64,000 bases of DNA from Balneolaceae bacterium (GTDB lineage Bacteria > Bacteroidota > Rhodothermia > Balneolales > Balneolaceae): assembly GCA_017640665.1 (NCBI GenBank), contig JAEPQE010000003.1, positions 310,001 to 374,000 of the forward strand, in the 5' to 3' direction. Positions within the stretch are counted from its first letter, which is position 1. Each line of letters opens with the position of its first letter. Below the pieces are notes generated by a model. It was not told the origin of the DNA. It ran no database searches and was given only the letters and a program-made list of their open reading frames with translations. Of the stretch, positions 17,871-51,114 are shown piece by piece. The translations under genes were made by a program, and so were the position numbers.

Positions 17871-20708
17871 ATGTACAAATCTCCAAGGTGGAATTTTAAA
17901 CTAATAATACCCGGTATATTTTTGATGCTGGTATCTATTTCACCAATGATAAATGCTCAGGAATCGGGCGGTATAAGAGGTCAGGTAGTTGACTCCACAA
18001 ACAATGAAGCCATATATGGGGTAAACTTATACATTCAGGAATTGGCCAGAGGGGCTGCAACTAATCTTGATGGTAACTTTGAAATCAGGTCTATTCCAAA
18101 TGGCTCTTATCGAATCCGAATTACTTATCTGGGTTATCAAACTAAAAATATTATTGTAGAAGTTGTAAATGGGCAAATAACAGATTTAGGAGAGATTCTT
18201 TTAGCCTCGGATTATTTGATGGGAGAAGAGATTACAGTACTTGCTCAAGCTGCAGGGCAAGCAGCCGCAATAAAGTCCCAGATTGAGTCTAATACGATTG
18301 TGAATGTAGTGTCGAAAGAGCGTTTGTCTGAGTTACCGGATCAAAATGCTGCTGAATCAGTAGCTCGACTTCCGGGTGTTTCTGTTCAAAGGGATGCAGG
18401 AGAAGCTTCAAAAGTAGTAGTTCGGGGCTTATCCCCAAGGTTTAACTCCATCACCGTAAATGGTGTTCGGGTTCCCGGAACTGAAGGTGACCGTTCAGTA
18501 GATTTAAGTCTACTACCTTCAGATGTACTTGATGGAATTGAAGTTTTTAAAGCTCTGACACCTGATAAAGATGCGGATGCCGTGGGGGGGACCGTAAATT
18601 TGTTAGTGAAGAAAGCACCTATAGGGTTTAGAAGTACGGCAAGCTTGGAATCCGGTTATAATGATATTCGGTCGGACTTCGGACAATACAAAGCATCTCT
18701 TAATTCCAGTAACAGATATCTCGATAATAAGTTAGGAATACTTATATCAGGTAGCGTTCAACGAGCCAACAGAGGATCAGAGTTATTTGACTTAGATCCC
18801 GAATTTAACCAGGAAGACTCTACTATTAATAATATTGAGAACCTGAACTTTACAGATAATTTCCAGGTAAGAGATAAGTATGGAGCCAGCGCTAGTCTGG
18901 ATTATGAGATCAATGAAAATCATGAGGTTTATATTTCATCTCTTTTTGGAAGAACCGAAAGAGATGAACAAAGATTCAGAAAGAGATACAGAGTCGGTAA
19001 TACTAGAACAGAATATGATGCAAGAGACCGTGAAAGATATGACCTGTTATACTCGAACATTCTAAACGGAGTACACAAGCTCAATAACTTTACTATAGAT
19101 TGGCAGACTTCGTATTCGTATACACTTTCCAAGCAGACTTATGGGAATTATGCCCGATTCTATGAAGTGGGGGCCTATAATAGTGGACTTGATAATACCA
19201 GCATCGAAAGCATAATTGATAAGGCTCGAAATAACTTAGATGCCACTTATTTTTTATACGGTACTAATGAAACGTTTCGAAATACAGAAGCGGACTTTAC
19301 TGCTTCAACCAATTTTAAATATAACTTTTACTTGAGTGAAACTGTTGCCGGTTATTTAAAAGCAGGAGCCAAAATAAGAGACAAGAATAAAGTTAATGAT
19401 CAGGATGAGGTAAGAACCGATTTTAATGTAATAAGTGAAATTGGACAGGATAATCCGGATTTATTTGATTTATACAACGAGACTCATGTGGCAATAAGTA
19501 ATTTTATAAATACAAACTATGAAATACCGAATATAAACGGTTATTCGGTTCTTTCTCCTGGGCTTGATTTAAACAGATTGAATAATTTTTACTCTACCTA
19601 TTCAGATGCTTACGAAAAAAACGGGTTTATTGACCTCGAAGATTATGAAGCGGGCGAAACTGTGACATCCGCTTATGTAATGGCAGAACTTAATTTTGGT
19701 TCCAGATTTTCTTTTTTACCTGGCATTAGATATGAACATGTAGAAACAAGTTACGACGGAAGGTTTGGGAATCTGGCAGGGAACCTTGGTCAAATTGGAG
19801 CAATTTCTGATACAACCGGAGGGCAGAATTATGGAGAGTTTTTTCCTCAGTTCCATCTGAAAGCAAACATTACAGAGGGGCTTGATATTCGATTGGCCTA
19901 TACACAAAGTCTATCCAGACCTGATTATGATAATTTAGTTCCCTTTGAACGGGTAAACGATTCAGAACAACAAATACAAAGAGGGAACCCGGACCTAAGG
20001 CACTCTAAGGCATTCAATTACGATATTTTCATGTCTTACTATAATAGTCGACTAGGCTACTTTTCGGTAGGGGCTTTTTACAAAGAAATTGAAGATGTGG
20101 ATTACCAACGAACAACCAGACTTACCGAAGGAGAGTTTGCAGGTTACGAGTTAACATCTCCTGTTAATGCAATTGGGAAGTCAACTGTAAGAGGAGTAGA
20201 ATTTGATTTACAAACTGATTTCAGGTTTTTACCAAAACCATTGGATGGTCTTATTCTATCCACAAATATTGCGTTTGTTGAATCTGAGACGTTCTTCCCG
20301 ATTCTATTAATAGGTGAAAGAAGTCCGGAACCCCCATTTAGACCAGTACTAATAGACACGGTTCGAGCTGGTAAACTTCCGGGGCAACCTGATGTTACTG
20401 CTTCATTTACTCTTGGGTATGAGATAGGACACTTTTCAGCAAGAGTGTCATTAGCCTATCAGGAATCTATTTTAGAGGAGCTTGGATCAAATGAACCGGT
20501 AGACCAGTTTTCAAAAGGATTTAGTTTTTGGGATCTCAGGGTGAATCAATCTTTCAGGAAATATCCGAATGTTACCGTTTTTGTTTCTATGAACAACTTC
20601 ACTTCCGAGTCGGAAGAGCAGTTTGTTGGGGGAGGGGATATATCCATTGATACCAGAGATTTCTCGTACGGTCTAACAGCTAGTACCGGTGTTAGAGTAA
20701 AATTTTAG
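17871..20708 (+). CDS. TonB-dependent receptor, carbohydrate type, first gene of the locus
   Basis: Predicted outer-membrane importer of oligosaccharides. The 945 residues comprise a signal peptide, a CarboxypepD_reg-like domain (about 30-115; IRGQVVDSTNNEAIYGVNL), and a plug with LPDQNAAESVARLPGVSVQR and LLPSDVLDGIEVFKALTPD. These plug words are typical of the Xanthomonas/Caulobacter receptor family (TIGR01782) that serves carbohydrate uptake. A large barrel ends GVRVKF. It heads the rightward operon, followed after 45 bp by the T9SS-exported protein. No SusD partner gene is present. Confidence 0.88.
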   Translation: MYKSPRWNFKLIIPGIFLMLVSISPMINAQESGGIRGQVVDSTNNEAIYGVNLYIQELARGAATNLDGNFEIRSIPNGSYRIRITYLGYQTKNIIVEVVNGQITDLGEILLASDYLMGEEITVLAQAAGQAAAIKSQIESNTIVNVVSKERLSELPDQNAAESVARLPGVSVQRDAGEASKVVVRGLSPRFNSITVNGVRVPGTEGDRSVDLSLLPSDVLDGIEVFKALTPDKDADAVGGTVNLLVKKAPIGFRSTASLESGYNDIRSDFGQYKASLNSSNRYLDNKLGILISGSVQRANRGSELFDLDPEFNQEDSTINNIENLNFTDNFQVRDKYGASASLDYEINENHEVYISSLFGRTERDEQRFRKRYRVGNTRTEYDARDRERYDLLYSNILNGVHKLNNFTIDWQTSYSYTLSKQTYGNYARFYEVGAYNSGLDNTSIESIIDKARNNLDATYFLYGTNETFRNTEADFTASTNFKYNFYLSETVAGYLKAGAKIRDKNKVNDQDEVRTDFNVISEIGQDNPDLFDLYNETHVAISNFINTNYEIPNINGYSVLSPGLDLNRLNNFYSTYSDAYEKNGFIDLEDYEAGETVTSAYVMAELNFGSRFSFLPGIRYEHVETSYDGRFGNLAGNLGQIGAISDTTGGQNYGEFFPQFHLKANITEGLDIRLAYTQSLSRPDYDNLVPFERVNDSEQQIQRGNPDLRHSKAFNYDIFMSYYNSRLGYFSVGAFYKEIEDVDYQRTTRLTEGEFAGYELTSPVNAIGKSTVRGVEFDLQTDFRFLPKPLDGLILSTNIAFVESETFFPILLIGERSPEPPFRPVLIDTVRAGKLPGQPDVTASFTLGYEIGHFSARVSLAYQESILEELGSNEPVDQFSKGFSFWDLRVNQSFRKYPNVTVFVSMNNFTSESEEQFVGGGDISIDTRDFSYGLTASTGVRVKF

Positions 20709-20753: not shown

Positions 20754-22316
20754 ATGATAAATGATACAAATAGGCTGTTTAAACAGGTTTTTGCATCCAC
20801 TTTAGCCCTCATTATGGTAATGATGGTACAAGTACAAGATGTACAAGCTCAAAGAACAGTAACAGTAGATCAGGGAGTTGGAACACTCAACGAGGCTATC
20901 GTTTCAGATACTACTGAAACAGGAGAAAGAGTTGATTCCAGTACAGTATATGTACTTAGCAGTGGTGGGACTTACCTGCTTGACGGAAGTATCGAGCACA
21001 GAGGATATCACCTGTCCATAGTAGCGGAAGAAGGATGGACTGAGCGTCCAAAACTTATTCCTGCTGTTGATAATGGAGGAGCTTCCAGTCGCCCATTCAG
21101 ACCAAGAGGTGACCTGACCTTAAGAGGGTTATATGTTACTAATGAGGATGAATTAGGAGGTAGAAATACCCGAATTATCAGAGTAAGTGAAAATGATGTA
21201 ACTATTACAATTGACAATTCACATCTTGATAAAGATGGCCAAAGTGCTTTCAGGCTTGATGGTACAGGAATCAGACTTTTCTTGACCAATTCAATTGTAA
21301 GTAATATCGGAACTACAGACAGTCCAGATAATGGTCGTGGCGTAGATGATAGAGGTAATCAGATTGATACACTTTGGTTTGCAAACAACACCTTTTACAA
21401 CTTAACATCACAAATTATTCGTGATGATGGTGGTTTGATTAATTATGCTTATTTCAATCAAAATACAGCAGTTAATATTGGTAAGAATATTGCGGTGGAG
21501 TTTGGCCCGGTAGTTAAAGGCGTAATGAAAGATAATCTCTTTATTAATGCCGCTTTCTATGGCTATAACACCAATGATGATGATGACCCACTCGCAGTAG
21601 TATCTGTTGACTCTCTTACTCAATCTGAAACTGATTCGTTAGGAGCGCAAGCATTTACTGCAAACAACAACAACATCTATTTGTCTGCGTCAATTACCGA
21701 GGCTTATCCTGATACAGTAGAAGCTCCGGTTAATTTCAATGCGACAGTTTCTGCGTTTATTGAAGCGCAAGGAAGTGCTTCGACTTTCCTTAATGAAGAT
21801 GTAACGTTTACGAGCGGTCCTGCTGCTCCAGCTGATGTAGTAACTACATTCTGGACAGATCCTACAAATGAAAATCCTCCTTCTTTCCCAACTCCGGGAG
21901 AGGGTGAATCTTTTGATTTTGGATATGCTGATACATTCGATTCATATACTGGTGGAAGCAATGGTCAACAACTTGGAGCGCTAAGTTGGTTTGGTACATT
22001 AGTAAGCAATGAGGACGATATTTCAATTGAAAGACCAAATACTTTCAAGCTGAATGGTAACTATCCAAACCCATTTAACCCATCAACAAGTATTTCTTTC
22101 GATCTGGCAGAAGCATCTGATGTATCGGTTGAAATATTTAATATGATCGGGCAGAAAGTAATGAGTATACCAGTTCAAAGACTGGCAGCAGGATCGAACC
22201 AAAATCTTAGAGTTGAAGCTGGTTCTTTGACTTCAGGAATTTACATTTACCGAATTACTGCAAAATCAGGAAATACGATTACTTCTAACACTGGAAGAAT
22301 GACACTGATTAAATAG
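20754..22316 (+). CDS. Exported beta-helix protein with T9SS sorting domain (candidate lyase or glycan-binding protein)
   Basis: The 520-residue protein has a signal peptide ending VQDVQAQ, then a right-handed parallel beta-helix-like region (about 35-370) rich in short strand repeats such as LTLRGLYVTNEDE and VTITIDNSHLDKDGQ. This resembles the DUF4957/DUF5123 pectate-lyase-fold proteins. The C-terminal ~85 residues start NYPNPFNPSTSISFDLAEAS and end TGRMTLIK, a Por-type (T9SS) sorting domain, so the protein should be surface-anchored or secreted. A strong ribosome-binding site (AAAGGAG) precedes the ATG and a terminator follows. It could be a chondroitinase-B/alginate-lyase-fold enzyme or only a binding protein; no catalytic residues are assigned. 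Confidence 0.7.
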   Translation: MINDTNRLFKQVFASTLALIMVMMVQVQDVQAQRTVTVDQGVGTLNEAIVSDTTETGERVDSSTVYVLSSGGTYLLDGSIEHRGYHLSIVAEEGWTERPKLIPAVDNGGASSRPFRPRGDLTLRGLYVTNEDELGGRNTRIIRVSENDVTITIDNSHLDKDGQSAFRLDGTGIRLFLTNSIVSNIGTTDSPDNGRGVDDRGNQIDTLWFANNTFYNLTSQIIRDDGGLINYAYFNQNTAVNIGKNIAVEFGPVVKGVMKDNLFINAAFYGYNTNDDDDPLAVVSVDSLTQSETDSLGAQAFTANNNNIYLSASITEAYPDTVEAPVNFNATVSAFIEAQGSASTFLNEDVTFTSGPAAPADVVTTFWTDPTNENPPSFPTPGEGESFDFGYADTFDSYTGGSNGQQLGALSWFGTLVSNEDDISIERPNTFKLNGNYPNPFNPSTSISFDLAEASDVSVEIFNMIGQKVMSIPVQRLAAGSNQNLRVEAGSLTSGIYIYRITAKSGNTITSNTGRMTLIK

Positions 22317-22393: not shown

Positions 22394-24946
22394 GTGCTCC
22401 AGAAAAAACTATCTCTAATAATTGCCTTATTAAGTATTGGCTATTCAACATCTGCATGTGCAAATGTTGATCCCCAACCAATAGAGTTTAAGAGAGTAAC
22501 TTACTTTTTCGATGTTGGAGGTTCAGAATCTGAAATTAAGAAAGATTATTTCCCAGTATTTCCTGAAACTAAGTACAGCAGGGAACTGGGTTATGGCTGG
22601 ACTACCCAAAGCCTGAATCCTTTTTCTCATGAAGAGACTAAAGAATCAAGGGATTCTTTTCTGATCGATGGTGTTATAGCAGAAAGTGTAGGTTTTAGAG
22701 CAGATATTCCGGAAGGAGAGTGGATGCTTACAATCTGGTTTGAAGGAGGACTTGAAGATACAGTCTCAACGAAAATCAGTATACAAAACGAGAGAAAATA
22801 TTTAGACCTCCAGGCATTCAGCCCCCATGCGGAGGCTCGTACAGATATACAAAAGATGTATCGAGTTATCCAACAGAAAGTACAGGTTGGCAACGAAGGA
22901 ATATCGTTCTACCTGGAAGGGGTAAATGATCAAGTAAGGCTTCTGGGAATAGGCGTAGCACCAATTAAGGAGCCCGAGAATAAAGATCAGGAAGAATTAT
23001 TAGCCCTGATTGAAGAAACCGGGAGCTTCAAGAGTAAGCTAAATGTTGAGGCCACCCGAAAAAAATTAGCAGAGTTAAGTACTGACCCAGAAAATATGAG
23101 TTTCGTTTCTCACTGGGATAATCAATTAGGGATTCTGTCGAAAGCCGAAGAGTTTTTTTACTTAAGGGGATGGGGTTGGGCAACAGACTCAACGGATATG
23201 AGCTTATTCGATCATCTTCATCAATCGGTGATGGTATACGATGGAATACTTTCTATGAATGAAGCTGAACAACACCCTTTGTACGAGCGAGCGTTGTGGT
23301 ACAGAGGAAGGCTGTTATATTGGCTTTATTTAGAAAGAGGTGGAATAAATGAAAAGAGAGGAGCGGATAGAGATCTGGCAGAGTTATACAAGCTTTTTAG
23401 TTCAGATGATTTGGTGCGAATGTATAATGGAGAGAAAATAGATCAGGATGATGAATTTGATAAAGTACCAAACAGCGAACTAGCTCCCGAATGGGCTTCT
23501 GTACAATGGGAACTTACGAACCGGTTAAAAGATATCGTTGACTGGTGGGTATATGTACAGCAGGACGAAAACGGAGAATTTGGGGGTAAGTTTGGTGATG
23601 ATGTGGAAATTCTCAGATGGTGGTCACCATTAATTCTTTCGGGAGATAAAACTACATACGAGGGATGGAAAAAACTAGCTGATGGAGTATGGAATAGTTC
23701 AAAAATCAAAAATGGATATGCAAAAAATCCCAGTGATGTTGAACATTCTTCAGAATTTATTTCCGATACCGCGCCTTTAATGGTTTTATATAACGATGAT
23801 CCGGTTTATGCTGACAGGCTTTCGTATTCATCCGATCATTTTCAAAACCTATGGACGGGCTTTAATGAAAATGGACACCGATTTTTTAAATCTGCCTGGT
23901 TTAGTTCCTCAGAAGTTGAGACAGAAGAGCCTAAAAATCGGGATGTATCCTATAATGCAAGAGCAACTAAAGCAGTACGATACTATGCCTGGAAAACCAA
24001 CGATTCTGAAACTAAGAAAGCTCTTATCGAATGGGCTGATGCCTGGTTAAGTGCATCTGAAAGTACTCAAAAAGAAAAACCAAGTGGGATTATTCCACCT
24101 TCGGTTGAGTATCCTACCGGGATAATTAATGGGAGTGAGCCGACCTGGTATAATGCAAACATGTACTGGGATTACTTCAACTGGAACGGAAGTAGTGGAA
24201 TACTTGATCAGCTACTATTTACCTGGACATTTACTGGCGATAATAAATACCTAAATCCTTTAATGATTCATTTAAACCTAGTAAAGGAGTATAAAGATGA
24301 ATTAGAAAATGAAGACAACAGGTTTAAGAAAGGAAGTGAGGCTTGGGTAGCTTACGAACTAGGTAATAGCGATAATTTTTGGAATGTGGTAGAGAACTGG
24401 CGGCTTCTTTCAGATGATAATTCCTATGACGGTTTAATACTTGAACACGGTTCAGATTTAATTAAGTATCGAATTACTAAGAATGAGGATCATCTGGTTG
24501 ATGCAATGATCCCTTATTTGGAGACTGTGAGATACAACAGACCAATGCTTACAAGTGAAGTGGTTCATACAGATAGAGTTTATATAAAAGAACCAAGCGA
24601 AAGAGAAGCAGGAATTTTACAAGGAATGATTACCGGGTTTGGAGCAGATGAAAGTGCTTCACCTTATATCGCTGTTAGTTGGGAGAATGCGGGTAGAGAC
24701 ATTACCTATTTGGTTACTGATAGCGACTCTTCCAGCTTGAAAGTGAAACTATACTCTTTTTCAGATAATGAAGAAGAGCTGACAATGAGGCTTTGGCAAT
24801 TATCTAATGGTAGATATACGATAACCAAAAAAGGGCAGGAAGGAAAAGAAGAACAGGTAATCGATATCTCGAAAAGAGGAGAAAGATTTCCGGTCAAAAT
24901 CCCTTCTCACGAACTACTTGAACTGGAAATAAACCGATTACAATAA
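22394..24946 (+). CDS. Large exported protein of unknown family, candidate polysaccharide lyase/hydrolase
   Basis: I do not recognise a family with certainty. The start is a GTG at 22394, with no clear Shine-Dalgarno. The N-terminus has a signal ending STSAC, a possible lipobox. Residues about 30-195 look like a galactose-binding-type beta-sandwich: a TYFFDVGG opening and GYGWTT, a pattern also seen ahead of rhamnogalacturonan esterases. Residues about 210-750 are helix-rich and tryptophan-rich (DIVDWWVYVQQDENGEFGG, VEILRWWSPLILSGD, WYNANMYWDYFNWNG), suggesting an (alpha/alpha) toroid. A C-terminal beta domain of about 90 residues follows. This domain order is common in uronic-acid polysaccharide lyases, but that is inference. 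Confidence 0.6.
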   Translation: MLQKKLSLIIALLSIGYSTSACANVDPQPIEFKRVTYFFDVGGSESEIKKDYFPVFPETKYSRELGYGWTTQSLNPFSHEETKESRDSFLIDGVIAESVGFRADIPEGEWMLTIWFEGGLEDTVSTKISIQNERKYLDLQAFSPHAEARTDIQKMYRVIQQKVQVGNEGISFYLEGVNDQVRLLGIGVAPIKEPENKDQEELLALIEETGSFKSKLNVEATRKKLAELSTDPENMSFVSHWDNQLGILSKAEEFFYLRGWGWATDSTDMSLFDHLHQSVMVYDGILSMNEAEQHPLYERALWYRGRLLYWLYLERGGINEKRGADRDLAELYKLFSSDDLVRMYNGEKIDQDDEFDKVPNSELAPEWASVQWELTNRLKDIVDWWVYVQQDENGEFGGKFGDDVEILRWWSPLILSGDKTTYEGWKKLADGVWNSSKIKNGYAKNPSDVEHSSEFISDTAPLMVLYNDDPVYADRLSYSSDHFQNLWTGFNENGHRFFKSAWFSSSEVETEEPKNRDVSYNARATKAVRYYAWKTNDSETKKALIEWADAWLSASESTQKEKPSGIIPPSVEYPTGIINGSEPTWYNANMYWDYFNWNGSSGILDQLLFTWTFTGDNKYLNPLMIHLNLVKEYKDELENEDNRFKKGSEAWVAYELGNSDNFWNVVENWRLLSDDNSYDGLILEHGSDLIKYRITKNEDHLVDAMIPYLETVRYNRPMLTSEVVHTDRVYIKEPSEREAGILQGMITGFGADESASPYIAVSWENAGRDITYLVTDSDSSSLKVKLYSFSDNEEELTMRLWQLSNGRYTITKKGQEGKEEQVIDISKRGERFPVKIPSHELLELEINRLQ

Positions 24947-24958
24947 AGGGCTAAAAGT

Positions 24959-26212
24959 ATGAGCAATTCCGAACCTTTGTCCTTCATGAAGAAGGTCCAG
25001 CTATTCGTTCTATCAATTGGACCGGGGCTATTTATAATCGGATATAATATAGGGACAGGAAGTGTTACCTCGATGGCATCGACTGGCGCAGAATATGGAA
25101 TGACGCTCACTTTGCCGTTATTGCTTTCATGCATATTCACTTACATCCTTATTGTTGTATTTGGTAAGTACACGTTGGTTACCGGCGATACGGTTATTTT
25201 TAGCTACAAAAAACATTTTGGGAAATCAGCAGGTCTGTTTGTACTTGTAGCCTTGATCTTCACAGAAGCAGTAGGAAGCGTTGGAGTAATGGCTATTGTA
25301 ACTCAAGTAACACAGGAATGGACTCGCCCCCTTACAGAATCAGGAAATGGTATCGATCCACTTTACTCTACTTTTGGGTACGGGGTGATTCTGTATGCAC
25401 TATTATGGAATGGTAAACAGAACTTTTTTGAAAAGGTGTTAGCAGTTTTTGTTGGAGTGATGGGACTTAGTTTTTTAGTAACCATGTTTATGGTAATCCC
25501 TGAACCAGCTCAGGTTATTTCAGGTGTTTTTTCTGGTATCCCGAATGAAACAGGGGCCTTTCTTCTTGTTGCCAGTATGGTAGGTACTACTATGGGGGCT
25601 GTAATTTATGTAGTCCGATCTGTTTTAATAAAGGGAAAGGGATGGGGTATGGAACAATTACCTCTCGAAAAAAGAGACGCAAAAATTTCAGCTGTGATAA
25701 TGTTTGTTTTAAGCATTTCAGTAATGGCCGCAGCTGCAGGTACTATGTATCAGGAAGGAATCAAAGTTGATAATGCCATTGATATGGTAAAACTACTAGA
25801 GCCATTTGCAGGTCGCTTTGCAATTACAATTTTTGTTGGAGGAATTCTTGCCGCAGGTTTGTCATCACTTTTCCCACATATTATGTTAGCTCCAATGTTG
25901 CTGGCAGACTACAAAGGAGAAAACCCGGATTTTCAATCCAAAACAAACCGATTAATTTCCCTGGGAATTATTCTTCTGAGTTTTACTGTGCCACTTTTCG
26001 GGGGGCGACCTGTATTTATAATGATTCTTTCTCAGGTATTTATTGCAACGGTTACTCCTATTGTAATTCTTCTAATGTTCATTTTGATGAACAAAAAACA
26101 GGTTGTAGGAGAGCATACACTTTCTCCAATAAAAAACCTTCTGGTTGGTCTGATACTCATTTTTTCAATAATTATGGCTGTATTGGGATTGATTGGAATT
26201 TTTTCGCTATAG
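24959..26212 (+). CDS. NRAMP-fold permease lacking the metal-site motifs
   Basis: An inner-membrane protein of 417 residues with about 11 helices. The opening GPGLFIIGYNIGTGS and the spacing of later helices match the NRAMP (SLC11) family. In true NRAMP metal transporters helix 1 reads DPGN; here the aligned positions are I31-G32-T33-G34. Helix 6, which should contain MPH, reads MGAVIYVVRS (about residues 211-220). The residues that coordinate manganese or iron are therefore absent. Its place between sugar enzymes, 12 bp after the previous gene, suggests transport of an organic product, but no substrate can be named. Confidence 0.75.
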   Translation: MSNSEPLSFMKKVQLFVLSIGPGLFIIGYNIGTGSVTSMASTGAEYGMTLTLPLLLSCIFTYILIVVFGKYTLVTGDTVIFSYKKHFGKSAGLFVLVALIFTEAVGSVGVMAIVTQVTQEWTRPLTESGNGIDPLYSTFGYGVILYALLWNGKQNFFEKVLAVFVGVMGLSFLVTMFMVIPEPAQVISGVFSGIPNETGAFLLVASMVGTTMGAVIYVVRSVLIKGKGWGMEQLPLEKRDAKISAVIMFVLSISVMAAAAGTMYQEGIKVDNAIDMVKLLEPFAGRFAITIFVGGILAAGLSSLFPHIMLAPMLLADYKGENPDFQSKTNRLISLGIILLSFTVPLFGGRPVFIMILSQVFIATVTPIVILLMFILMNKKQVVGEHTLSPIKNLLVGLILIFSIIMAVLGLIGIFSL

Positions 26213-26239: not shown

Positions 26240-28096
26240 ATGCTATATCCTCAACAAAACAAATTTCGGTCAGTATTTGATTTATCGGGATACTGGAATA
26301 TTAAACCAGATCCAAAGAATCAAGGGGCACAGGAAAAATGGTTTAATAGTAAACTTACAGGCGATGTGTATTCGATTGCAATCCCAGGTTCATGGAACGA
26401 ACAATTAGAAGAACAGGGATTAAAAAATTATGTTGGAAAAGCATGGCACGAGACTTTTTTTAAAATTCCTGCGGTAATTCAGGATACCAATAAAATATGG
26501 CTGAGAATAGGAGCTGCAGACCATAAAGCGACTGTTTGGCTTAATGGTGAGTTTGTAGGAGAGCACGTTGGTGGTTATATGCCCTTTGAACTTGATTTGA
26601 CAAACTCTTTGGCAAAATCAGGAGAAGAAAACCACTTGATTATCTGTGTTGATAGTGAACTTAGTATGCATACGCTACCACAGGATGTCGACCCAAATTC
26701 TCCAATGTATAATACAAAGGCGTATGAACGCAGACACCTTTTTCCTGCAACCAGATTTGATTTCTTTCCTTATGGAGGTTTGACCCGGTCAGTAAATATT
26801 GTAGCCACACCAAATGATTATATTTCAAATATTACAATCAATTCATCTTTGGAAGGAGATGTTAGTGTAGAAATTGATGCTACATCCATTGATAAAGTAA
26901 GGGTTCAGATTTTTGATGCAGAAGGTCAGGAAGTGTCAAATGGTACAACGGAGCAAGTAAATAAAGTCAATTTAAAAGTAGCTAATGTCCAATTATGGTC
27001 ACCATCTGATCCATATTTATATGAAGCCAGGGTCTCTCTTTTGGATGGAGATCAGGTATTGGATATGTATGATGAAGCGTTCGGAATTAGAGAGATCAAA
27101 GTAGAAGGAGGGGAGATTTTCCTGAATGGAGAAAAACTCTTTTTAAGTGGTTTTGGAAAACATGAAGAATACCCGGTTGTAGGGAGAGGACAGTTTCGGG
27201 CTGGATATATAAAGGATCACGAACTGATGCGTTGGATAGGTGCCAATTCGTACCGAACAAGCCATTATCCCTATGATGAGGAGATGATGCGTTTAGGAGA
27301 CCGACTTGGATTTTTGATTATTAATGAAGTAGCTGCCGTTAGTTTAGGTTTTTGGTCAGATAATCTCAATGAATTGCAGCCTTTAATGAAAAATCACAAG
27401 AAGGCTATTCAGGAGCTCATTAATAGGGATAAAAACCATCCGAGTGTTATCTCCTGGTCGATAACAAACGAACCAAATCTCTGGGCTGAAGAGTTTTATC
27501 AGAATAAAGCGAGTTCACTATACTTTAAAGAGATTTATGATTTCACAAAAACACTGGATGATACCCGGCCAATTATGTCTATCTCTATGGCTGCGTATAA
27601 AGAAGATGATGTGGTATTGGAATCATGTGATATCATTGGAATAAACAGATATTACGGTTGGTATACGAAGCCCGTAGATTTAGAAGAAGCCGCAAAAGAT
27701 TTAAACAGGGAACTGGAAGCCACATTCAACAAGTATGGAAAGCCGATAATGATTACAGAGTTTGGAGCAGATACAGTAGAAGGATTACATGCTACTACAG
27801 CCCAAATGTTTACAGAAGAGTTTCAAACGGCATTCATATTTAAATATCTGGAAGTTATTGAAGACAAGGATTACGTATTCGGAGCACATGTTTGGAACTT
27901 TGCAGACTTTTTAACACCGCAACATTTCCGGCGGGTTGTTCTTAATAAAAAAGGCGTTTTCACCCGAGACAGATTACCAAAAAGTGTTGCCTTTAAACTG
28001 AGAGACCATTGGAATTCATTTTCTAAAATCAATGAATCCCACAGACCAGAGAAACCAAAAACGGGTTTTCTAATCCCAAATATTGAGAAGGAATAA
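26240..28096 (+). CDS. uidA: Beta-glucuronidase, GH2
   Basis: Hydrolyses terminal beta-D-glucuronic acid from imported glycosides. The 618 residues follow the GH2 order: sugar-binding jelly roll (YWNIKPDP, WLNGEFVGEHVGGY), immunoglobulin-like domain, and TIM barrel. The acid/base is E411 in TNEPN and the nucleophile is E507 in ITEFGAD. N569-K570-K571 in LNKKGVFTRDRLPKS matches the N-x-K motif that binds the glucuronate carboxylate in E. coli GUS, which separates glucuronidases from galactosidases. There is no signal peptide, so the enzyme is cytoplasmic and depends on an importer. It ends 4 bp before the next start. Confidence 0.92.
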   Translation: MLYPQQNKFRSVFDLSGYWNIKPDPKNQGAQEKWFNSKLTGDVYSIAIPGSWNEQLEEQGLKNYVGKAWHETFFKIPAVIQDTNKIWLRIGAADHKATVWLNGEFVGEHVGGYMPFELDLTNSLAKSGEENHLIICVDSELSMHTLPQDVDPNSPMYNTKAYERRHLFPATRFDFFPYGGLTRSVNIVATPNDYISNITINSSLEGDVSVEIDATSIDKVRVQIFDAEGQEVSNGTTEQVNKVNLKVANVQLWSPSDPYLYEARVSLLDGDQVLDMYDEAFGIREIKVEGGEIFLNGEKLFLSGFGKHEEYPVVGRGQFRAGYIKDHELMRWIGANSYRTSHYPYDEEMMRLGDRLGFLIINEVAAVSLGFWSDNLNELQPLMKNHKKAIQELINRDKNHPSVISWSITNEPNLWAEEFYQNKASSLYFKEIYDFTKTLDDTRPIMSISMAAYKEDDVVLESCDIIGINRYYGWYTKPVDLEEAAKDLNRELEATFNKYGKPIMITEFGADTVEGLHATTAQMFTEEFQTAFIFKYLEVIEDKDYVFGAHVWNFADFLTPQHFRRVVLNKKGVFTRDRLPKSVAFKLRDHWNSFSKINESHRPEKPKTGFLIPNIEKE

Positions 28097-28100
28097 TTGT

Positions 28101-28898
28101 ATGCGTGAAGAAAGATTAAAGATTTGGCATGTCGGTAACTGGTGTATTCATATTGGTCAAACCTATGTGGAATCACCCTTTGAGGCACCCAGTAAGGATG
28201 TTGAGGTTCTTAATTACGCCAAGCCATTGATTGATGCATTAAGAAAAATCCCCTCCTCGGAAGTAATAACTCAACCTTCATGGGAATTATATAGAATGTC
28301 TCCCGAGGAATTTAGTGATAGACTAAAGTGGGCTGATGTTATCATCTTTGCTGATGTAGAAACTAAATGTTTAATGTTACATCCGGATTTTTTTAACAGG
28401 GCTAAATGGGAAGAGGGATACGTTACCTTTCCAGATCGTTTTGATCTACTAAGGGAATGGGTTGAAGCCGGGGGGCATTTTCATATGAATGGAGGTTGGC
28501 TGAGTTTTTCCGGTGAACTTGGGAAAGGAGGTTGGGGCAGATCTCGATTCAAGAACGTATTACCTGTGGAATGTTTACAACATGATGATTTGATAGAATC
28601 CACCTCAAGCTATAAAGTAAGATGTAATTTACCAGATCACCCTTCAGTAAAAGATGTGAACTGGGCTTCAGTTCCTCCTATTCTTGGCTTTAACGAAACA
28701 AAGATAAGACCTGATGCTAAAGCCATAGTAGAAATAGAAAATATGGGCGAATGGCACCCATTATTGGCAGAGCATTCATACGGGGCTGGAAGAGTAACCT
28801 GCTGGATGACAGGGGCAAGCCCGCATTGGGGAATAAACTTTATGAAGTGGGAAAACTACCAACAATTTTGGGCACAACTATTTAACCCTGTACAATGA
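28101..28898 (+). CDS. Class I glutamine-amidotransferase-like protein (DUF1355/ThuA-like)
   Basis: The 265-residue cytoplasmic protein looks like the GATase1-like family, related in fold to ThuA. Evidence is the KIWHVGNWCIHIGQTYVESP opening, RLKWADVIIFADVET, the REWVEAGGHFHMNGGWLSFSG core and the C-terminal VTCWMTGASPHWGINFMKW. I took the ATG at 28101; a TTG at 28083 lies inside the end of the beta-glucuronidase gene. The usual nucleophilic cysteine of true amidotransferases is not evident in the core, so it may bind or modify a sugar instead. ThuA-like proteins occur in operons for oxidised (keto) sugars. It overlaps the next gene by ATGA. Confidence 0.65.
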   Translation: MREERLKIWHVGNWCIHIGQTYVESPFEAPSKDVEVLNYAKPLIDALRKIPSSEVITQPSWELYRMSPEEFSDRLKWADVIIFADVETKCLMLHPDFFNRAKWEEGYVTFPDRFDLLREWVEAGGHFHMNGGWLSFSGELGKGGWGRSRFKNVLPVECLQHDDLIESTSSYKVRCNLPDHPSVKDVNWASVPPILGFNETKIRPDAKAIVEIENMGEWHPLLAEHSYGAGRVTCWMTGASPHWGINFMKWENYQQFWAQLFNPVQ

Positions 28899-30388
28899 AC
28901 TTTACAGCTATAGATTGGGCTATATTGATCGCTTATTTATCAGTAACGGTATTTATAGGTATCTGGGTAAAGAAATATGTCCAGAATCTTAGTGGATACG
29001 TTGTTGCGGGCAGAAAAATCAAAGTATCGCTTGGCATAGCTACGTTTACTGCAACCGAACTGGGAACAGTAACCTTTGTGTATTTCGGAGAGCTTGGCTA
29101 TGTAACCGGTTTTGCTTGCTTCATCATTGGTATACTGGCTCTTTTTGCATACACCTTCGTTGGTAAAACCGGGTTTATCATTGAAAAGCTCAGGGAGTAT
29201 GGAATGATGACTATCCCGGAGTTTTATGAATTGAGATATAATAAAAAAGTAAGAATACTTGGCGGACTAATACTCTTTATTGGCGGTGTTCTGAATATGG
29301 GCATCTTCCTGAAATTTGATGGAATTTTTCTTTCAGAAGTAATGGGATTTGGTCCTCAGGCACTTGGGTTTATAATGACATTAATGCTTGTAATAGTTAT
29401 GTCTTATACCATTTTGGGCGGAATGTTTTCGGTAGTAATCACTGATTTTATGCAATATGTGGTGCTTTCCTTTGCAATGCTTATAACCACCATAATTGTA
29501 ATTCTTGAAGTAGATTTATCAACAATTTCTGATGCAGTTACTTCAGGCTATGGGGAGGGAGGAGTAAACCCGATTATCAATCCAAGGTTTGGGTGGAGTT
29601 TCATTATTTGGATACTAGTTACAAATATTGCGGCGGCTGCTCTGTGGCAACCGGGTACTTCTAAGGCACTTTCATCCAAAAGCCCGGAAGTTGCCAAAAA
29701 GGTGTTTTGGTTTACAGGGTTAACCTTTGCCGGGCGAGCTATGATTCCTATGTTTTGGGGTGTTGCCGCGTTTGCCTATTTCGGTCCAGGAGAAAATACA
29801 GCAGCAGCAATGCCAATGCTTTTAGGGGAACTACTTCCTGTTGGCCTTCTTGGTCTATTAGTGGCAGGATTATTAGCAGCTTCAATGTCTACCTATAGCT
29901 CTTATGTATTAGCCTGGAGCTCGGTATTAACTTTGGATGTAATTTCAACACTAAGTCCGAATGGATTCAGCGAAGAAAGAAAGATTTGGATTGCACGTTT
30001 TGTGGCGGGTTTAATCGGTCTGTTTTTGCTCGTTTTTGGGTTATGGTATCAAATTCCGGAAACAGCTTTTCAATATATATTCATTACCGGTACAATGTAC
30101 ACAGCAGGTGCCTTAGGTACAGTTTCAGCAGGTTTGTATTGGAAAAAGGCAAATGCTGTTGGCGCTCACTCAGCACTTATTCTAGGGGCTGTTGTCCCAG
30201 CAGGATTTTTGGTTTTGGAGAAGTTTTCAGAACACCTGCCCGGTTGGTTGGCTTTTATAACGGATGTTAACTTTGCAGGGTTTCTGAGTTTCATTTTAGC
30301 AGCACTTGGAATGATTCTTGGATCTTTACTAACACAGAAAAAAAGCCCGGCTAAGGTTATTAATGAAGCGGAGATAAGCTATGAGTAG
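28895..30388 (+). CDS. Sodium:solute symporter (SSS family)
   Basis: A 497-residue inner-membrane symporter of the LeuT-like SSS/SLC5 fold with about 13 helices. Marks are YVVAGRKIKVSLGIATFTATELG in the first helices (the family R/G signature), LTNIAAAALWQPGTSKALSSKSP, and the LLAASMSTYSSYVLAWSSVLTLD helix 8 stretch, where small hydroxyl residues (S, T, S) usually form the sodium-2 site. It starts inside the stop of the previous gene and overlaps a small membrane-protein gene at its end. Probably imports the mono- or disaccharide product. Confidence 0.88.
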   Translation: MNFTAIDWAILIAYLSVTVFIGIWVKKYVQNLSGYVVAGRKIKVSLGIATFTATELGTVTFVYFGELGYVTGFACFIIGILALFAYTFVGKTGFIIEKLREYGMMTIPEFYELRYNKKVRILGGLILFIGGVLNMGIFLKFDGIFLSEVMGFGPQALGFIMTLMLVIVMSYTILGGMFSVVITDFMQYVVLSFAMLITTIIVILEVDLSTISDAVTSGYGEGGVNPIINPRFGWSFIIWILVTNIAAAALWQPGTSKALSSKSPEVAKKVFWFTGLTFAGRAMIPMFWGVAAFAYFGPGENTAAAMPMLLGELLPVGLLGLLVAGLLAASMSTYSSYVLAWSSVLTLDVISTLSPNGFSEERKIWIARFVAGLIGLFLLVFGLWYQIPETAFQYIFITGTMYTAGALGTVSAGLYWKKANAVGAHSALILGAVVPAGFLVLEKFSEHLPGWLAFITDVNFAGFLSFILAALGMILGSLLTQKKSPAKVINEAEISYE

Positions 30389-30527
30389 TGGAGTAATAAT
30401 TTGGATGATTCTTTTCGGAATTTTCGCCGTTATTTTTTTCTCAATAGCTGCAGTGGTTTCGTATAAGGGAATAGGAGATATAAAAGAATTAATGAATGAT
30501 CCGGAGTTGAATAAAGAACATGATTAA
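30381..30527 (+). CDS. 48-residue single-pass membrane protein, symporter partner
   Basis: A short gene that starts 8 bp inside the end of the symporter gene and ends 8 bp inside the next gene. It reads MSSGVIIWMILFGIFAVIFF as one membrane helix, followed by a charged tail ending ELNKEHD. Length, position and one-helix design match the small accessory subunits known beside some sodium:solute symporters. Overlaps with both neighbours argue that it is translated. Confidence 0.75.
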   Translation: MSSGVIIWMILFGIFAVIFFSIAAVVSYKGIGDIKELMNDPELNKEHD

Positions 30528-31419
30528 TTCCAGAATCATAGCGTGTTATTTGTACCCGATTACTAAATACGGGTATCCACCAAAGGCAGAAAATACGATC
30601 AGCTATATTGATGAATTCATTTCGATGGGCTTTCAGTCTATTGAATTGGAAGGGATTCGCGAGGACCATTTACTGAAGGTATTTGAAAACAGGAATAAGA
30701 TTTCAGCCCATTTAGAAGAGAATCAATTAGAAGTACCATACTACTGCACGGTACTTCCCGGATTATCATCACCGGATGAAAAAGTGCGTTCGAAAAATTT
30801 GGAACTCTTTGATAAAGGATGTCAAACAGCTTCGGAGTTTGGTTCTTTAGGTGTTCTGGATAATGCTCCTCTCCCTCCATATCAGTTTCCTGATGATATA
30901 CCTGTTGTAAGACATTATCACGAAAGTACTATTCAAGCAGCAAAATTTCCGGATGATTTAAACTGGAATAACTACTGGAAACAACTAACATCTACATACA
31001 GAGATGCCTGCGACATCGCCGAAAGCTATAATCTTACCTACCAAATGCATCCGGCGCTTGGGGTTCTTTCTTCCACAACAGATGCGTTTCTCTACTTTCA
31101 TGATGCAGTTGGTAGAGATAATCTTCGTTTTAACTTCGATACCGCAAACCAGTTTTTCCTGAAAGATAATCTTCAACTTTCATTGAGAAGACTATCTGAC
31201 TTTATCGACTATATCCATATCTCAGATAACCGAGGATCGCAAGTCGAACATCTTGCGATTGGAGAAGGGGCTATACGTTGGGATGACTTCTTTGAAACTG
31301 TAGACCTGATTGGGTTTGAAGGGCACTTTGGAGTTGATATAGGAGGTGCTGAATCTTCAGTCTCAGACTTAGATTCCGCTTATAAAAAAGCATCAGATTT
31401 TTTAGACAAAAGAATATAA
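30520..31419 (+). CDS. Sugar phosphate isomerase/epimerase-like TIM barrel protein
   Basis: The 299-residue cytoplasmic protein matches the AP-endonuclease-2-like (xylose-isomerase-like) TIM barrel. It has FQSIELEGI at strand 2, then YQMHPALGV, LRFNFDTANQFF, DYIHISDNRG with the metal-ligand D/H region, and a C-terminal GVDIGG. Members are epimerases, isomerases and dehydratases of sugars and inositols (IolE/IolI). The substrate here is presumably a product of the locus. Its start overlaps the small membrane gene. Confidence 0.75.
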   Translation: MINSRIIACYLYPITKYGYPPKAENTISYIDEFISMGFQSIELEGIREDHLLKVFENRNKISAHLEENQLEVPYYCTVLPGLSSPDEKVRSKNLELFDKGCQTASEFGSLGVLDNAPLPPYQFPDDIPVVRHYHESTIQAAKFPDDLNWNNYWKQLTSTYRDACDIAESYNLTYQMHPALGVLSSTTDAFLYFHDAVGRDNLRFNFDTANQFFLKDNLQLSLRRLSDFIDYIHISDNRGSQVEHLAIGEGAIRWDDFFETVDLIGFEGHFGVDIGGAESSVSDLDSAYKKASDFLDKRI

Positions 31420-31426
31420 TAATACC

Positions 31427-34009
31427 ATGAGAGCATTTAAGACCATATTTAAGCTAACCGGATTAATTTTAACTCTAACATTTAATGTCTACTTATTAAT
31501 GGCTCAGGAGACAATAAATATTGTCCCAAATCCACAGGAAGTCATTTTTACTGAAGGGAGTTTTTCCTTAGAGGGAGAAGTAGGTATATCTCTCTATCTA
31601 AAGAACAAGGTTGAGGAAGCTTTTATATTCGAGCAGTTGAAGAATGAATTCAACCAGAGTATTGGATCGGGAATCAATGTTCAGGAAGGTGGTGGAACAA
31701 GAAGAATTATAATTGGAGTTGAAGGAGGTAGCCGGGCTTTTAACCGACTAATCAATCAGTTCGATCTAAAACCCGGTGAAGAGTTAGGTAAAGAAGGATA
31801 TAAACTTTTAGTTACATCCGATCTCATTCTGATATCAGCAAACTCCATTAAAGGAGCATTTTATGGTGCTCAAACACTGAAACAGCTTATCAGAACCGAA
31901 CGTTTTGATTTGGCTATTCCTGCTCTTCAAATTAAAGACTGGCCCGACCTCGAGATAAGGGGCATGATGGATGATATTAGTAGAGGCCCGGTCCCTACAA
32001 AAGAATACATGTATCAACAAATTGAGCGGATGGCTGAAATGAAGGTCAATTTATTAACTTATTATACTCAGGATGTGGTTAAAACAGAAAGCCACCCTGC
32101 ATTTGCACCGCCAGGTGGTGCATTAGATATTCAGGAATGGGCAGAACTTGCCGACTATGCTAAAAAATATCACATTGATTTAGTAGGTAATTTTCAATCG
32201 TTCGGGCATTTTGAAAATATTCTGAAGCATCCGGAATATGCTCACCTGGGTGAAGGCGGGGCACTTTTATCACCTGCTTTTGAAGAGAGTTATCAACTTC
32301 TGGGAGATATCTACAGAGAGATGATTCCTGCTTTTCATTCTGATTATTTCCATATCAATTCAGACGAAACATTTGATCTTGGGACTGGTGCTTCAAAAGC
32401 TATGGTAGATAGTCTTGGAGAGGCGGTTGTTTATTCAAATCATATTAAACGCATATATGAGATTATAACAGGAATGGGTAAGAAAGTGATGATGTGGGGT
32501 GATATTGCTCTTGAACAACCTAAGATTTTAGAATTGCTGCCCAAAGACATCATTCTGGTAACATGGGGATATGATATAATGGACGATTACGCGCCAAGAA
32601 TAATCCCTTTTAAAGAAGCAGGATTTACTCAGCTTGTATCTACAGGGGTGTTAAACTCTTCCAGCACTATTCCCGATTTTAATATTGCGAAAGGTAATAT
32701 TGGCGGGTTTATGGCAGAATCTAAAAAACAAAATGTTTGGGGAATGCTGAATACCGTATGGGATGACGGTGGCTTTGCTTTGTTTTCAAGAGATTGGTAC
32801 GGAGTTACATTTGCTGCAGATCAAAGCTGGAACAGCAATCCGAAAGACCCGACCTACGATACCAGATTTAACAAGGCTGTTTATGGAAGTACTAATAATG
32901 GAATAACAGAAGCTTTATCAAAAATTAATGAACTGGCTGATCTGAAATCAACCGAGAAAATGAATGAAGCAATTCTTTGGGGACCGTTGGTTCCAGAAAA
33001 GGGAGCAGAAGTTCTTACAAACATTTCCGATTGGGCTGAAGTTAAAAAAATAGCCAGGGAAGCAGAGAAACTTCTTGAAAAAGCAGATCCTCTCATATAT
33101 TCACAAGATATAGAATTTATTCAGCATACAATTGATTTGTATGAATACTTGGCAAGCAGCAGACCTGATTTAGTAAAAGCATCAGAATTATATAAACAGG
33201 CTCTGGCCATTCAGAACGAAGACCCGATTAAGTCTAGAAAAATATTGGTAGATATTTATGGGATTGTTACTGAAATCTATGAAGATCTTACTGAACTCAA
33301 GATTCGTAATCAGTTTTTATGGATAAGCGAAAACAGAGTTTATGCTTTAGATAGGGTAGTTTCAAGATATGATCATCAAATAGAATCTTTGAAAGAAGTA
33401 AAGGAGCTTACTCTTAATACAATATTCGATTTTGATAAGGGAATCAAGTTACCTAAGCCCGAAGATGTACGACTAAATATTACTTCTACTGATGGTTGGT
33501 ACTTTCAGGGATGGTTGATGGTAGAGCCTTTTCCAAATGCAAAAGGATTTACTGATCCCGGAGTAGATCATCTGGAAGATATGAACGGAATCGAAGGTAC
33601 CTTTCCTAACGTAACGGAAGAGTTTTATTTCGACGGAATTAAATACCGATGGAGAAGGGTAAACACACCATATTTTGCAAAAGTAGATCTTGATGAAATA
33701 CATGGAGAGAGTAAAAATGTGGTTGGCTATGCATTTGCACATATAGATATAGAAGAAGACCGGGTTGTAAGAGCTACACTAGGCAGCAGCGATGGGGTGG
33801 AAGTATTTTTAAATGGGGAATCGGTACATCAAAATTACACCGAGAGAGATTTTAAGCTGGATGAAGACGAGCTCTATTTACCTTTAAAAGCCGGCAGGAA
33901 CCATTTAATGATTCGCATTACAAATAAAGAAGGTGACTGGGCTTTTAGTTTCCGACTACCTGATTCAGAAATGAGAAGCAGTAAAAACAGATATAAAATC
34001 ATTGAATGA
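31427..34009 (+). CDS. GH20-like beta-N-acetylhexosaminidase, exported
   Basis: Likely releases terminal N-acetylhexosamine in the periplasm. The 860 residues have a signal peptide ending YLLMAQE, a GH20 N-terminal zincin-like domain (about 27-170; NIVPNPQEVIFTEGSFSL, ending IKGAFYGAQTLKQLI), and a catalytic barrel (about 175-480). The barrel opens RGMMDDISRGPVP and includes the acid pair D313-E314 in FHINSDETFDLG, where canonical GH20 has HxGGDE. A helical region and a C-terminal beta-sandwich (about 680-850, VEVFLNGESVH) follow. The altered motif marks a divergent branch, so sugar specificity is open. It overlaps the next gene by ATGA. Confidence 0.82.
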   Translation: MRAFKTIFKLTGLILTLTFNVYLLMAQETINIVPNPQEVIFTEGSFSLEGEVGISLYLKNKVEEAFIFEQLKNEFNQSIGSGINVQEGGGTRRIIIGVEGGSRAFNRLINQFDLKPGEELGKEGYKLLVTSDLILISANSIKGAFYGAQTLKQLIRTERFDLAIPALQIKDWPDLEIRGMMDDISRGPVPTKEYMYQQIERMAEMKVNLLTYYTQDVVKTESHPAFAPPGGALDIQEWAELADYAKKYHIDLVGNFQSFGHFENILKHPEYAHLGEGGALLSPAFEESYQLLGDIYREMIPAFHSDYFHINSDETFDLGTGASKAMVDSLGEAVVYSNHIKRIYEIITGMGKKVMMWGDIALEQPKILELLPKDIILVTWGYDIMDDYAPRIIPFKEAGFTQLVSTGVLNSSSTIPDFNIAKGNIGGFMAESKKQNVWGMLNTVWDDGGFALFSRDWYGVTFAADQSWNSNPKDPTYDTRFNKAVYGSTNNGITEALSKINELADLKSTEKMNEAILWGPLVPEKGAEVLTNISDWAEVKKIAREAEKLLEKADPLIYSQDIEFIQHTIDLYEYLASSRPDLVKASELYKQALAIQNEDPIKSRKILVDIYGIVTEIYEDLTELKIRNQFLWISENRVYALDRVVSRYDHQIESLKEVKELTLNTIFDFDKGIKLPKPEDVRLNITSTDGWYFQGWLMVEPFPNAKGFTDPGVDHLEDMNGIEGTFPNVTEEFYFDGIKYRWRRVNTPYFAKVDLDEIHGESKNVVGYAFAHIDIEEDRVVRATLGSSDGVEVFLNGESVHQNYTERDFKLDEDELYLPLKAGRNHLMIRITNKEGDWAFSFRLPDSEMRSSKNRYKIIE

Positions 34010-34770
34010 TGCTACCGATTTTAACTCATAAAGTAGATATGTTGAGCGTTTCTGTTTTCAAAAATAGAAAAGAGCTAGGGATGTCTGCTGCTCATTATGT
34101 TAGAGAAAAGATTCTGGAAGTTCTTGCACAGAAAAATGAAGTAAGAATAATCTTTGCAGCGGCTGCATCACAAAGAGAGTTCCTATCTGAGCTATTGAAC
34201 TTTAATGATATTCCCTGGGAGAAGGTAACGGCATTTCAAATGGATGAATACCATACACTTCCAAAATCTGCCCCCCAACGATTTGGAAACTTTCTACATT
34301 CGGTATTCTACCGATTTAAGACATTCAAAAATGTTCATTATATGAACGATAATCTGAAGGAATATGAATCACTGATAACAAACGCACCCATAGATATTGT
34401 TTGTCTCGGAATTGGAGAAAATGGACATCTAGCATTTAATGACCCTCCGGTAGCAGACTTTCAGGATCCAAAGGTCATAAAAGAAGTCGAATTAGATGCG
34501 ACTTGCAGACAGCAGCAGGTGAATGATGGAGAGTTTGAGAGTATTGAAAAAGTGCCCGAAAAGGCAGTCACTCTTACAATTCCTGCACTTATGAAAGGGA
34601 GTTTTTTGTCGGTAGTTGTTCCAGGAGCTGCAAAAGCGGAAGCAGTTAAAGATACCTTATTTGGAGAAATCAGTACAACATGTCCTGCAAGCCTGTTACG
34701 AACACATCCCAACGCAGAATTATTTCTTGACCCTGAATCATCAAAACTAATAGTTGATAAAATAGCATGA
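34006..34770 (+). CDS. NagB-like sugar-phosphate deaminase/isomerase
   Basis: The 254-residue cytoplasmic protein belongs to the glucosamine-6-phosphate deaminase/6-phosphogluconolactonase fold. It keeps FQMDEYHTL (the DEY that opens the sugar ring) and GIGENGHLAFNDPP. In E. coli NagB the last motif supplies D141, H143 and E148; the aligned residues here are N139, H141 and D146. Both acids are therefore changed. It may deaminate a different amino sugar phosphate or only isomerise. It lies between the hexosaminidase and the oxygenase genes with 4-bp overlaps on both sides. Confidence 0.78.
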   Translation: MMLPILTHKVDMLSVSVFKNRKELGMSAAHYVREKILEVLAQKNEVRIIFAAAASQREFLSELLNFNDIPWEKVTAFQMDEYHTLPKSAPQRFGNFLHSVFYRFKTFKNVHYMNDNLKEYESLITNAPIDIVCLGIGENGHLAFNDPPVADFQDPKVIKEVELDATCRQQQVNDGEFESIEKVPEKAVTLTIPALMKGSFLSVVVPGAAKAEAVKDTLFGEISTTCPASLLRTHPNAELFLDPESSKLIVDKIA

Positions 34771-44913: not shown

Positions 44914-44915
44914 AA

Positions 44916-45407
44916 CTAAACTTGGTTTGAGGTTTCTGTTACTTCTTCGCTATTTCGAACTAACGAAATGATATCTCTGGCTTTATAAGAGATGATGAGC
45001 AATCCACTGACTGGAACAATTATGTACACATAGGCCAGAGGTATTTGCATGGCAGCAGATGTTTGCCCCAAAGTGTAGGTTATATAAACTAACCTTACCC
45101 CCCCTAACACAAATGTACAAAGAACGAAAACCAGGATAAGTGTATGTATTGTAATCTGAAGCCTGGACTTAGACTTTCCTTTGAGCTTTGCAGGGAGTAA
45201 ATCTATTGCCAAGTGCATACCTTTACCTGAGGCATAAGCACCACCCAATAGGCCAATCCAGATTAAGAGGTATCTAGCCAATTCATCAGTAAACGAACTT
45301 GGAGAGGAGAGCACATATCGGCTAATTACCTGCCAGCACACGCTGAAAAGCATTAAAGCCATCAAGAATGCCAGAAAATATTCCAGAAATTTGGTCAGTT
45401 TATTCAT
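44916..45407 (-). CDS. dctQ: TRAP transporter small membrane subunit (DctQ)
   Basis: The 163 residues form four membrane helices, with FTDELARYLLIWIGLLGGAYA, the DctQ signature, and a periplasmic RxHLAIDLL-like segment (GKGMHLAIDLLP). It partners with DctM and overlaps the end of the dctP gene by 8 bp. Confidence 0.92.
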   Translation of the reverse strand: MNKLTKFLEYFLAFLMALMLFSVCWQVISRYVLSSPSSFTDELARYLLIWIGLLGGAYASGKGMHLAIDLLPAKLKGKSKSRLQITIHTLILVFVLCTFVLGGVRLVYITYTLGQTSAAMQIPLAYVYIIVPVSGLLIISYKARDIISLVRNSEEVTETSNQV

Positions 45408-46392: not shown

Positions 46393-46395
46393 GAA

Positions 46396-47064: not shown

Positions 47065-47078
47065 AAATAAATCTGATT

Positions 47079-49282: not shown

Positions 49283-49284
49283 GG

Positions 49285-51109: not shown

Positions 51110-51114
51110 GGTAA

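Follow-up and report, generated by a model that had tools for sequence, protein, structure and literature searches.

A clade of Nramp-fold permeases without the metal site, encoded among sugar-acid and amino-sugar genes of Bacteroidota

The window, a stretch of 64,000 nucleotides from a Balneolaceae bacterium, carries a permease gene whose product, judged from its sequence, is a member of a large and previously unassigned Nramp branch without any metal-binding residue, here called the GTGS clade. The observation is more general than the preliminary description of this DNA saw, as it holds clade-wide and is not a one-off. Since the metal residues are lost and the genes around are those of sugar-acid and amino-sugar use, sugars, not metals, are most likely carried, and the branch probably transports sugar acids and amino sugars, importing them. 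The best explanation overall, which we consider quite probable, is an Nramp-fold clade with a rebuilt site that imports the monosaccharide of its operon.

Gene call, fold and operon of the permease

The open reading frame at 24959-26212 is real, and its strand (+) and length (417 aa; protein label P0001) were confirmed. The upstream gene ends at 24946, which leaves the 12-bp gap given in the preliminary description, and the gene does lie inside a carbohydrate operon, as was also said there. The protein matches Pfam PF01566 (Nramp) over profile positions 1-356 of 357 (168.7 bits vs a cut-off of 29.8, E 2.5e-49), and this whole-profile match above the curated cut-off places it in the Nramp superfamily by sequence. 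It misses the NCBIfam cut-off for MntH (NF001923; 60.9 bits vs 430) and narrowly passes that of NF037982, ‘Nramp family divalent metal transporter’ (59.5 vs 50), which is why such proteins are automatically annotated as metal transporters.

The AF2 model used here was built from 46 relatives (pLDDT 88.2, pTM 0.87), an earlier model from 8 sequences with an unbroken TM1 (pLDDT 78) having been dropped for it. It has the Nramp-type LeuT fold with broken TM1 and TM6, and its top PDB matches are all Nramps. DraNramp is the best solved match (6c3i, Z 48.7, rmsd 2.2 over 379 residues; 8e60, TM 0.84/0.89), EleNRMT (Z 47.9), BfraNramp (Z 44.2) and a YcsG model (Z 43.7) match as well, and APC amino-acid transporters rank after the Nramps (Z 27-30). 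The helix breaks of the model, at residues 31-32 in TM1 (between 30 and 33) and 212-213 in TM6, coincide exactly with the two substituted motifs described below. With the PF01566 match and a model that agrees with solved Nramps, the earlier claim of an Nramp-fold permease holds, and the protein is a bona fide member of that fold.

The permease gene is part of a single run of + strand genes (17871-39129). The genes of this run and those flanking it are:

17871-20708, +: SusC-like TonB-dependent receptor, first gene of the operon and found upstream in relatives too (Pfam TonB_dep_Rec, Plug, CarbopepD_reg_2)
20754-22316, +: secreted protein with Por secretion tail (Pfam PF18962)
22394-24946, +: conserved protein of 850 aa, immediately upstream of the permease (in 9/17 loci of the permease's group)
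26240-28096, +: GH2 beta-glucuronidase (NCBIfam PRK10150, 613.8 bits vs a cut-off of 544)
28083-28898, +: GATase1-like protein (Pfam PF07090)
28895-30388, +: sodium:solute symporter (SSS) family transporter (Pfam PF00474)
30520-31419, +: xylose-isomerase-like TIM-barrel sugar isomerase/epimerase (Pfam PF01261; in 16/17 loci)
31427-34009, +: GH20-like beta-N-acetylhexosaminidase (Pfam GH20b, GH20; PDB hexosaminidases; in 14/17 loci)
34006-34770, +: NagB-like protein, glucosamine-6-phosphate isomerase/deaminase family (Pfam PF01182; NagB model 114 bits, below the curated cut-off)
34767-35594, +: PhyH-family dioxygenase (Pfam PF05721)
35624-37417, +: GH88/GH105-like unsaturated uronyl hydrolase (Pfam PF07470; PDB matches to GH105/GH88)
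37420-39129, +: second SSS-family transporter (Pfam PF00474)
39138-40274, -: GntR-type regulator with sugar-binding domain (Pfam GntR, Peripla_BP_3)
43618-51954, -: uronate catabolism operon (TRAP DctM/DctQ/DctP, KDPG aldolase, UxuA, KDG kinase-like, LacI, KduD-like SDR, KduI)
52955-54370, +: UxaC glucuronate isomerase (Pfam PF02614, 666.9 bits)

As uronate and hexosamine genes occur together at this locus, the polymer degraded there would contain uronate and N-acetylhexosamine. The operon block is common to seven Balneolaceae loci (the window and six others), and in two of the six, otherwise syntenic, the GATase1-like/SSS pair (28083-30388) is missing and the permease is kept. These two loci (L025 and L028) have a second GH2 gene upstream instead. 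The 850-aa protein has no match in Pfam, NCBIfam or PDB sequences; kept in 9 of 17 related polysaccharide loci, it is a candidate for a new polysaccharide-active enzyme.

The metal site and the extent of the GTGS clade

The features of the permease on which the argument turns are:

24959-26212, +: Nramp-related permease of the GTGS clade (ORF call, Pfam, AF2, DraNramp match)
25052-25063, +: TM1 break, G32-T33-G34-S35, where metal-transporting Nramps have DPGN (alignments, model)
25265-25267, +: E103 in TM3 (Glu/Gln pattern across groups)
25586-25603, +: TM6 break, T210-V215 (TTMGAV), with G213-A214-V215 at the MPH position (alignments, model)
25616-25618, +: R220, clade-invariant, at the second TM6 His of canonical Nramps (alignment, 143/143)

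Loss of the metal ligands was confirmed by phmmer and profile alignments to solved Nramps and by a MAFFT multiple alignment. The alignment with BfraNramp is gapless and sets GFIDPGNW against YNIGTGSV, so that D-P-G-N corresponds to G32-T33-G34-S35; the preliminary description had placed DPGN at I31-G32-T33-G34, a register off by one. Its statement that the metal ligands are gone, the helix 6 MPH included, is borne out by the alignments, in which M-P-H falls on G213-A214-V215. Thus the permease has neither the DPGN of TM1 nor the MPH of TM6 that mark canonical Nramp/SLC11 proteins, and in the alignments to solved Nramps all the Asp, Asn, Met and His ligands have disappeared. At the position of the Nramp site motif, which is written DxxN-AxxM (PMC8806188), it has GxxS-TxxG; this also differs from the NRMT motif DxxG-TxxA/T, as the TM1 Asp is missing. 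The TM3 Glu of Nramps (E116 in BfraNramp, E134 in DraNramp) is replaced by Val110 in the multiple alignment, and the second TM6 His of canonical Nramps aligns to R220. In its motifs and in its lack of the TM3 Glu the permease fits the definition of Nramp-related proteins (no DPGN, no MPH, no TM3/TM9 proton-pathway residues), which form a paraphyletic set without metal motifs, nearly all uncharacterised (2026 preprint, PMC12873925).

Metal ligands kept intact at shifted positions, which the preliminary description had named as evidence against its reading, were looked for, and no Asp, Glu or His was found at residues 31-35 or 210-215 in any of 143 clade members. Met212 lies one residue upstream of the ligand position and is not conserved, with Val, Cys or Leu in its place in 43 members. 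A shifted intact site was rejected on these grounds.

Relatives were gathered by searching whole genomes with an alignment and were found at 36-84% identity. A gap in score surrounds the clade: complete members reach at least 347 bits, and any other Nramp found reaches at most 165 bits. In the tree, the 24 rows used from it form one clade with support 100/99, and both tree and motif place it outside the PxpT, NRMT and canonical clades. Sampling covered one phylum plus E. coli; at E ≤ 1e-70, members occur in 16/92 genomes of the window's family, in 51/299 and 74/248 genomes of two other families and in 19/394 genomes of a phylum-wide sample. Residues G32, T33, G34, S35, T210, T211 and R220 are invariant in the 143 aligned members, and none of the 17 outgroup Nramp-family rows of the alignment has Arg at the R220 position.

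The window genome (G000; L001, L003) encodes three Nramp-family proteins above the cut-off, none of them with DPGN, and one of the three genes adjoins pxpABC (5-oxoprolinase). The E. coli member (L094 4995-6275; L038), with 38% identity, lies between dnaB and qorA in 546/5426 complete genomes; its operon also encodes a LacI regulator, a CoA transferase, an enoyl-CoA hydratase and an FAD oxidoreductase. A search for further clade members on plasmids gave the E. coli gene only. CP054241.1 (L038), an 834-kb ‘E. coli plasmid’ in which two overlapping frames make up the Nramp-like gene, has the core chromosomal genes dnaB, alr, tyrB and dusA and is possibly part of a chromosome.

Gene neighbourhoods and probable cargo

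At least one of 16 sugar-catabolism marker genes, among them alginate lyases, KDG kinase, KDPG aldolase, KdgF, UxuA/UxaC, NagA/NagB, GH20 and GH2, was found at 112/143 clade loci vs 1/14 control Nramp-related loci, a small set drawn partly from other taxa. About 31 of the 143 loci have no marker, in part because contigs are short. Among 148 immediate operon neighbours scanned with Pfam were alginate lyase (23), KDPG aldolase (15), NagA-like amidohydrolase (14), glucosamine-isomerase family (14), TIM-barrel sugar isomerase (12) and SDR (10); none of the 25 commonest families is one of metal homeostasis. Moreover, 30 genomes contain 52 KDPG aldolase genes between them, and one of these is no more than 2 kb away from the permease gene in 10/30 (vs 0.06 expected) and no more than 25 kb away in 18/30 (vs 0.6 expected). 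Together with the control loci, this distance test rules out chance proximity to sugar genes.

Loci could be typed as sugar acid (70), amino sugar (22) or GAG-like (17), and type switches only 3 times on the tree vs a shuffled mean of 36 (minimum 31), a contrast which is inflated by relatedness and for which the shuffle is no strict null because tree labels are inherited together; yet the association recurs in distant families. The preliminary description had called for phylogeny to be compared with gene neighbourhoods, and the single clade (100/99), the markers at 112/143 loci and the three type changes speak in its favour. Its further idea of an SLC11 branch moving organic compounds such as uronates or amino sugars gains from the motif invariant in 143 members, from the tree-linked sugar loci and from the precedent of PxpT discussed below; the assignment to SLC11 proper fails, as strict usage (Cellier, PMC10606218) makes such proteins outgroups of SLC11.

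In the mechanism that we propose, the permease would be an inner-membrane secondary transporter of the Nramp (LeuT) fold, from a distinct Nramp-related clade, in which the central metal site DxxN-AxxM has apparently been rebuilt as a small-residue site GxxS-TxxG/A/S with an invariant TM6b Arg. Transport would most likely proceed by rocking-bundle alternating access, as is usual for the LeuT/Nramp fold. The cargo would be a monosaccharide that the operon's polysaccharide-degrading enzymes set free in the periplasm, and we infer that it moves inward. Subgroups of the clade are apparently specialised, either for sugar acids (alginate monouronate, aldonates, hexuronates) or for amino sugars. It seems fairly likely that the clade as a whole is a substrate-specialised one for sugar acids and amino sugars in Bacteroidota, with an unrecognised alginate-monouronate importer in marine alginate degraders among its members, and that through a GTGS/Arg site an ion-transport scaffold was converted to, or else kept from, one for organic solutes.

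For the window member two cargoes may be considered: an N-acetylhexosamine from the GH20 enzyme, which would pass to the NagB-like protein and the TIM-barrel isomerase, or an (unsaturated) uronate from the beta-glucuronidase and the GH88 enzyme. In its group of 17 loci the TIM-barrel isomerase is the most constant neighbour (16), followed by GH20 (14) and the NagB-like gene, with GH2 and GH88 less frequent. Position 103 in TM3 is Glu in 17/17 members of this group and in 21/22 of the amino-sugar group, and Gln in 60/70 of the sugar-acid group. Hence the TIM-barrel/GH20/NagB-like linkage and Glu103 lean to N-acetylhexosamine, which is slightly favoured as the probable cargo, with uronate possible. 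R220 is a candidate substrate-binding residue and E103 a possible specificity residue.

Other transporters, where present, weigh against this reading. The window already has two SSS symporters and a TRAP system which might bring in the sugars. An MFS transporter is also present in 19/48 alginate-type loci, so that sugar uptake does not depend on the permease in every case. Among 44 alginate-type loci with full flanks, 25 showed no MFS, SSS or TRAP gene nearby with the seeds used, and there the permease may therefore be the sole inner-membrane importer.

Alternative readings and related systems

Among the alternatives, a permease that is still a Mn2+/Mg2+ transporter survives best. Main-chain and Ser/Thr oxygens would then hold the metal, or a hydrated ion would pass, and cofactors would be fed to the operon enzymes, which may indeed require divalent metals. 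Motif-less relatives outside the GTGS clade offer precedents. EleNRMT, a Mg2+ carrier without the canonical motif, transports Mg2+ and Mn2+, and EcoDMT with its site changed to NRMT residues still transported Mn2+ (PMC8806188). MntG (PMC10448178) and MumT of A. baumannii (PMC5050338), also without the motif, are reported to increase cellular Mn. However, EleNRMT retains the TM1 Asp (DAGG; PMC8806188), whereas the GTGS clade has no acidic residue at either break (143/143), and the invariant Arg would be unfavourable beside a cation. A shared metal substrate would also not predict that the type of neighbour varies by subclade, or that the 25 most frequent neighbour families lack those of metal homeostasis. 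We consider continued metal transport unlikely.

The permease shares with canonical Nramp/MntH/SLC11 proteins (DraNramp, BfraNramp, ScaDMT, DMT1) the Pfam family, the fold and topology (Z 44-49 for DraNramp and BfraNramp) and the TM1/TM6 breaks, but it differs in GTGS for DPGN, GAV for MPH, Arg for the second TM6 His and Val110 for the TM3 Glu, at ∼20% identity. EleNRMT is alike in fold (Z 47.9), in the TM6-site Thr (TxxA vs TxxG in the permease) and in having a non-Nramp motif, and unlike in the TM1 Asp and in its Mg2+ and Mn2+ transport.

A second alternative is an organic-anion permease for a downstream carboxylic acid or amide, or an exporter. PxpT of C. glutamicum, an Nramp-related protein, is required for growth on 5-oxoproline and was complemented in trans (PMC13274462); its homologue in B. 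subtilis, YcsG, was renamed MntG since its overexpression raises Mn (PMC10448178), and MntG falls in the G-motif 3 group (PMC12873925). Thus the PxpT genetics support an organic substrate, and the MntG and MumT data claim a metal role in the same and in another branch. PxpT/YcsG resembles the window protein in being Nramp-related, in having Gly for the TM1 Asp and in its catabolic operon, and has genetic evidence for 5-oxoproline. It differs in belonging to another clade with 21-25% identity, in the GPGT/VPY motifs, TM6 His and adjacent pxpABC of the pxp-linked homologues, and in a disputed substrate (Mn vs 5-oxoproline); the window operon has no pxp genes, and the GTGS clade is separate (100/99). 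Other Nramp-related groups adjoin pxpABC, hydantoinase/oxoprolinase, or CoA transferase and thiolase genes, and the E. coli clade member lies beside CoA transferase, enoyl-CoA hydratase and FAD oxidoreductase genes. The commonest neighbours within the clade are, however, the first steps of sugar release and sugar-acid use (lyases, KdgF, KDG kinase, KDPG aldolase), and a downstream acid as cargo is in our view quite improbable.

It is hardly credible that the protein moves no substrate, whether as a transceptor or sensor or as a decayed transporter which linkage has preserved: many of these operons do have other transporters, but nearly all members keep open frames at 36-84% identity with strictly conserved pocket and helix-break residues, and AF2 gives a confident full-length transporter model.

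The reading that we prefer, import of operon monosaccharides, has to be set against current annotation. In databases such proteins go under the name of divalent metal transporters, and the label has reached the literature for at least one alginate locus. In open-licence papers we found no published functional claim linking Nramp to alginate, uronate or sugar transport, and the sole mention found there of Nramp in an alginate locus labels the gene a metal transporter (PMC6431674). This gene is from Alteromonas sp. 76-1, in whose alginolytic systems it is shown as Nramp, metal-ion transporter (Fig. S3 legend); compared by setting alone, it resembles the alginate subclade (alginate lyases, KdgF, DEH reductase) and differs in being interpreted as a metal transporter. 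If sugar import is true, the clade would supply candidate genes for the missing uptake of alginate, galactonate, hexuronate and hexosamine in marine Bacteroidota. The Nramp fold would then have been, or have become, an organic-solute carrier several times, like the rest of the APC superfamily, and the interchange of metal site and sugar site on one scaffold would become directly testable. The finding is also relevant to the dispute over what MntG/PxpT and MumT carry.

Four loci with NRMT-like (DAGG) genes (L089, L090, L091 and L092) have no sugar markers; in each of them the gene is directly preceded by one for a similar-looking protein of 404-433 aa, a possible conserved partner of the Mg-type branch. 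At another locus (L037, 8312-11762), an Nramp-related gene of a different type (GPGS motif) has DHDPS-like and epimerase-like genes as neighbours and KduI-, KduD- and UxuA-like genes in the vicinity, a setting which suggests further organic-substrate Nramp branches.
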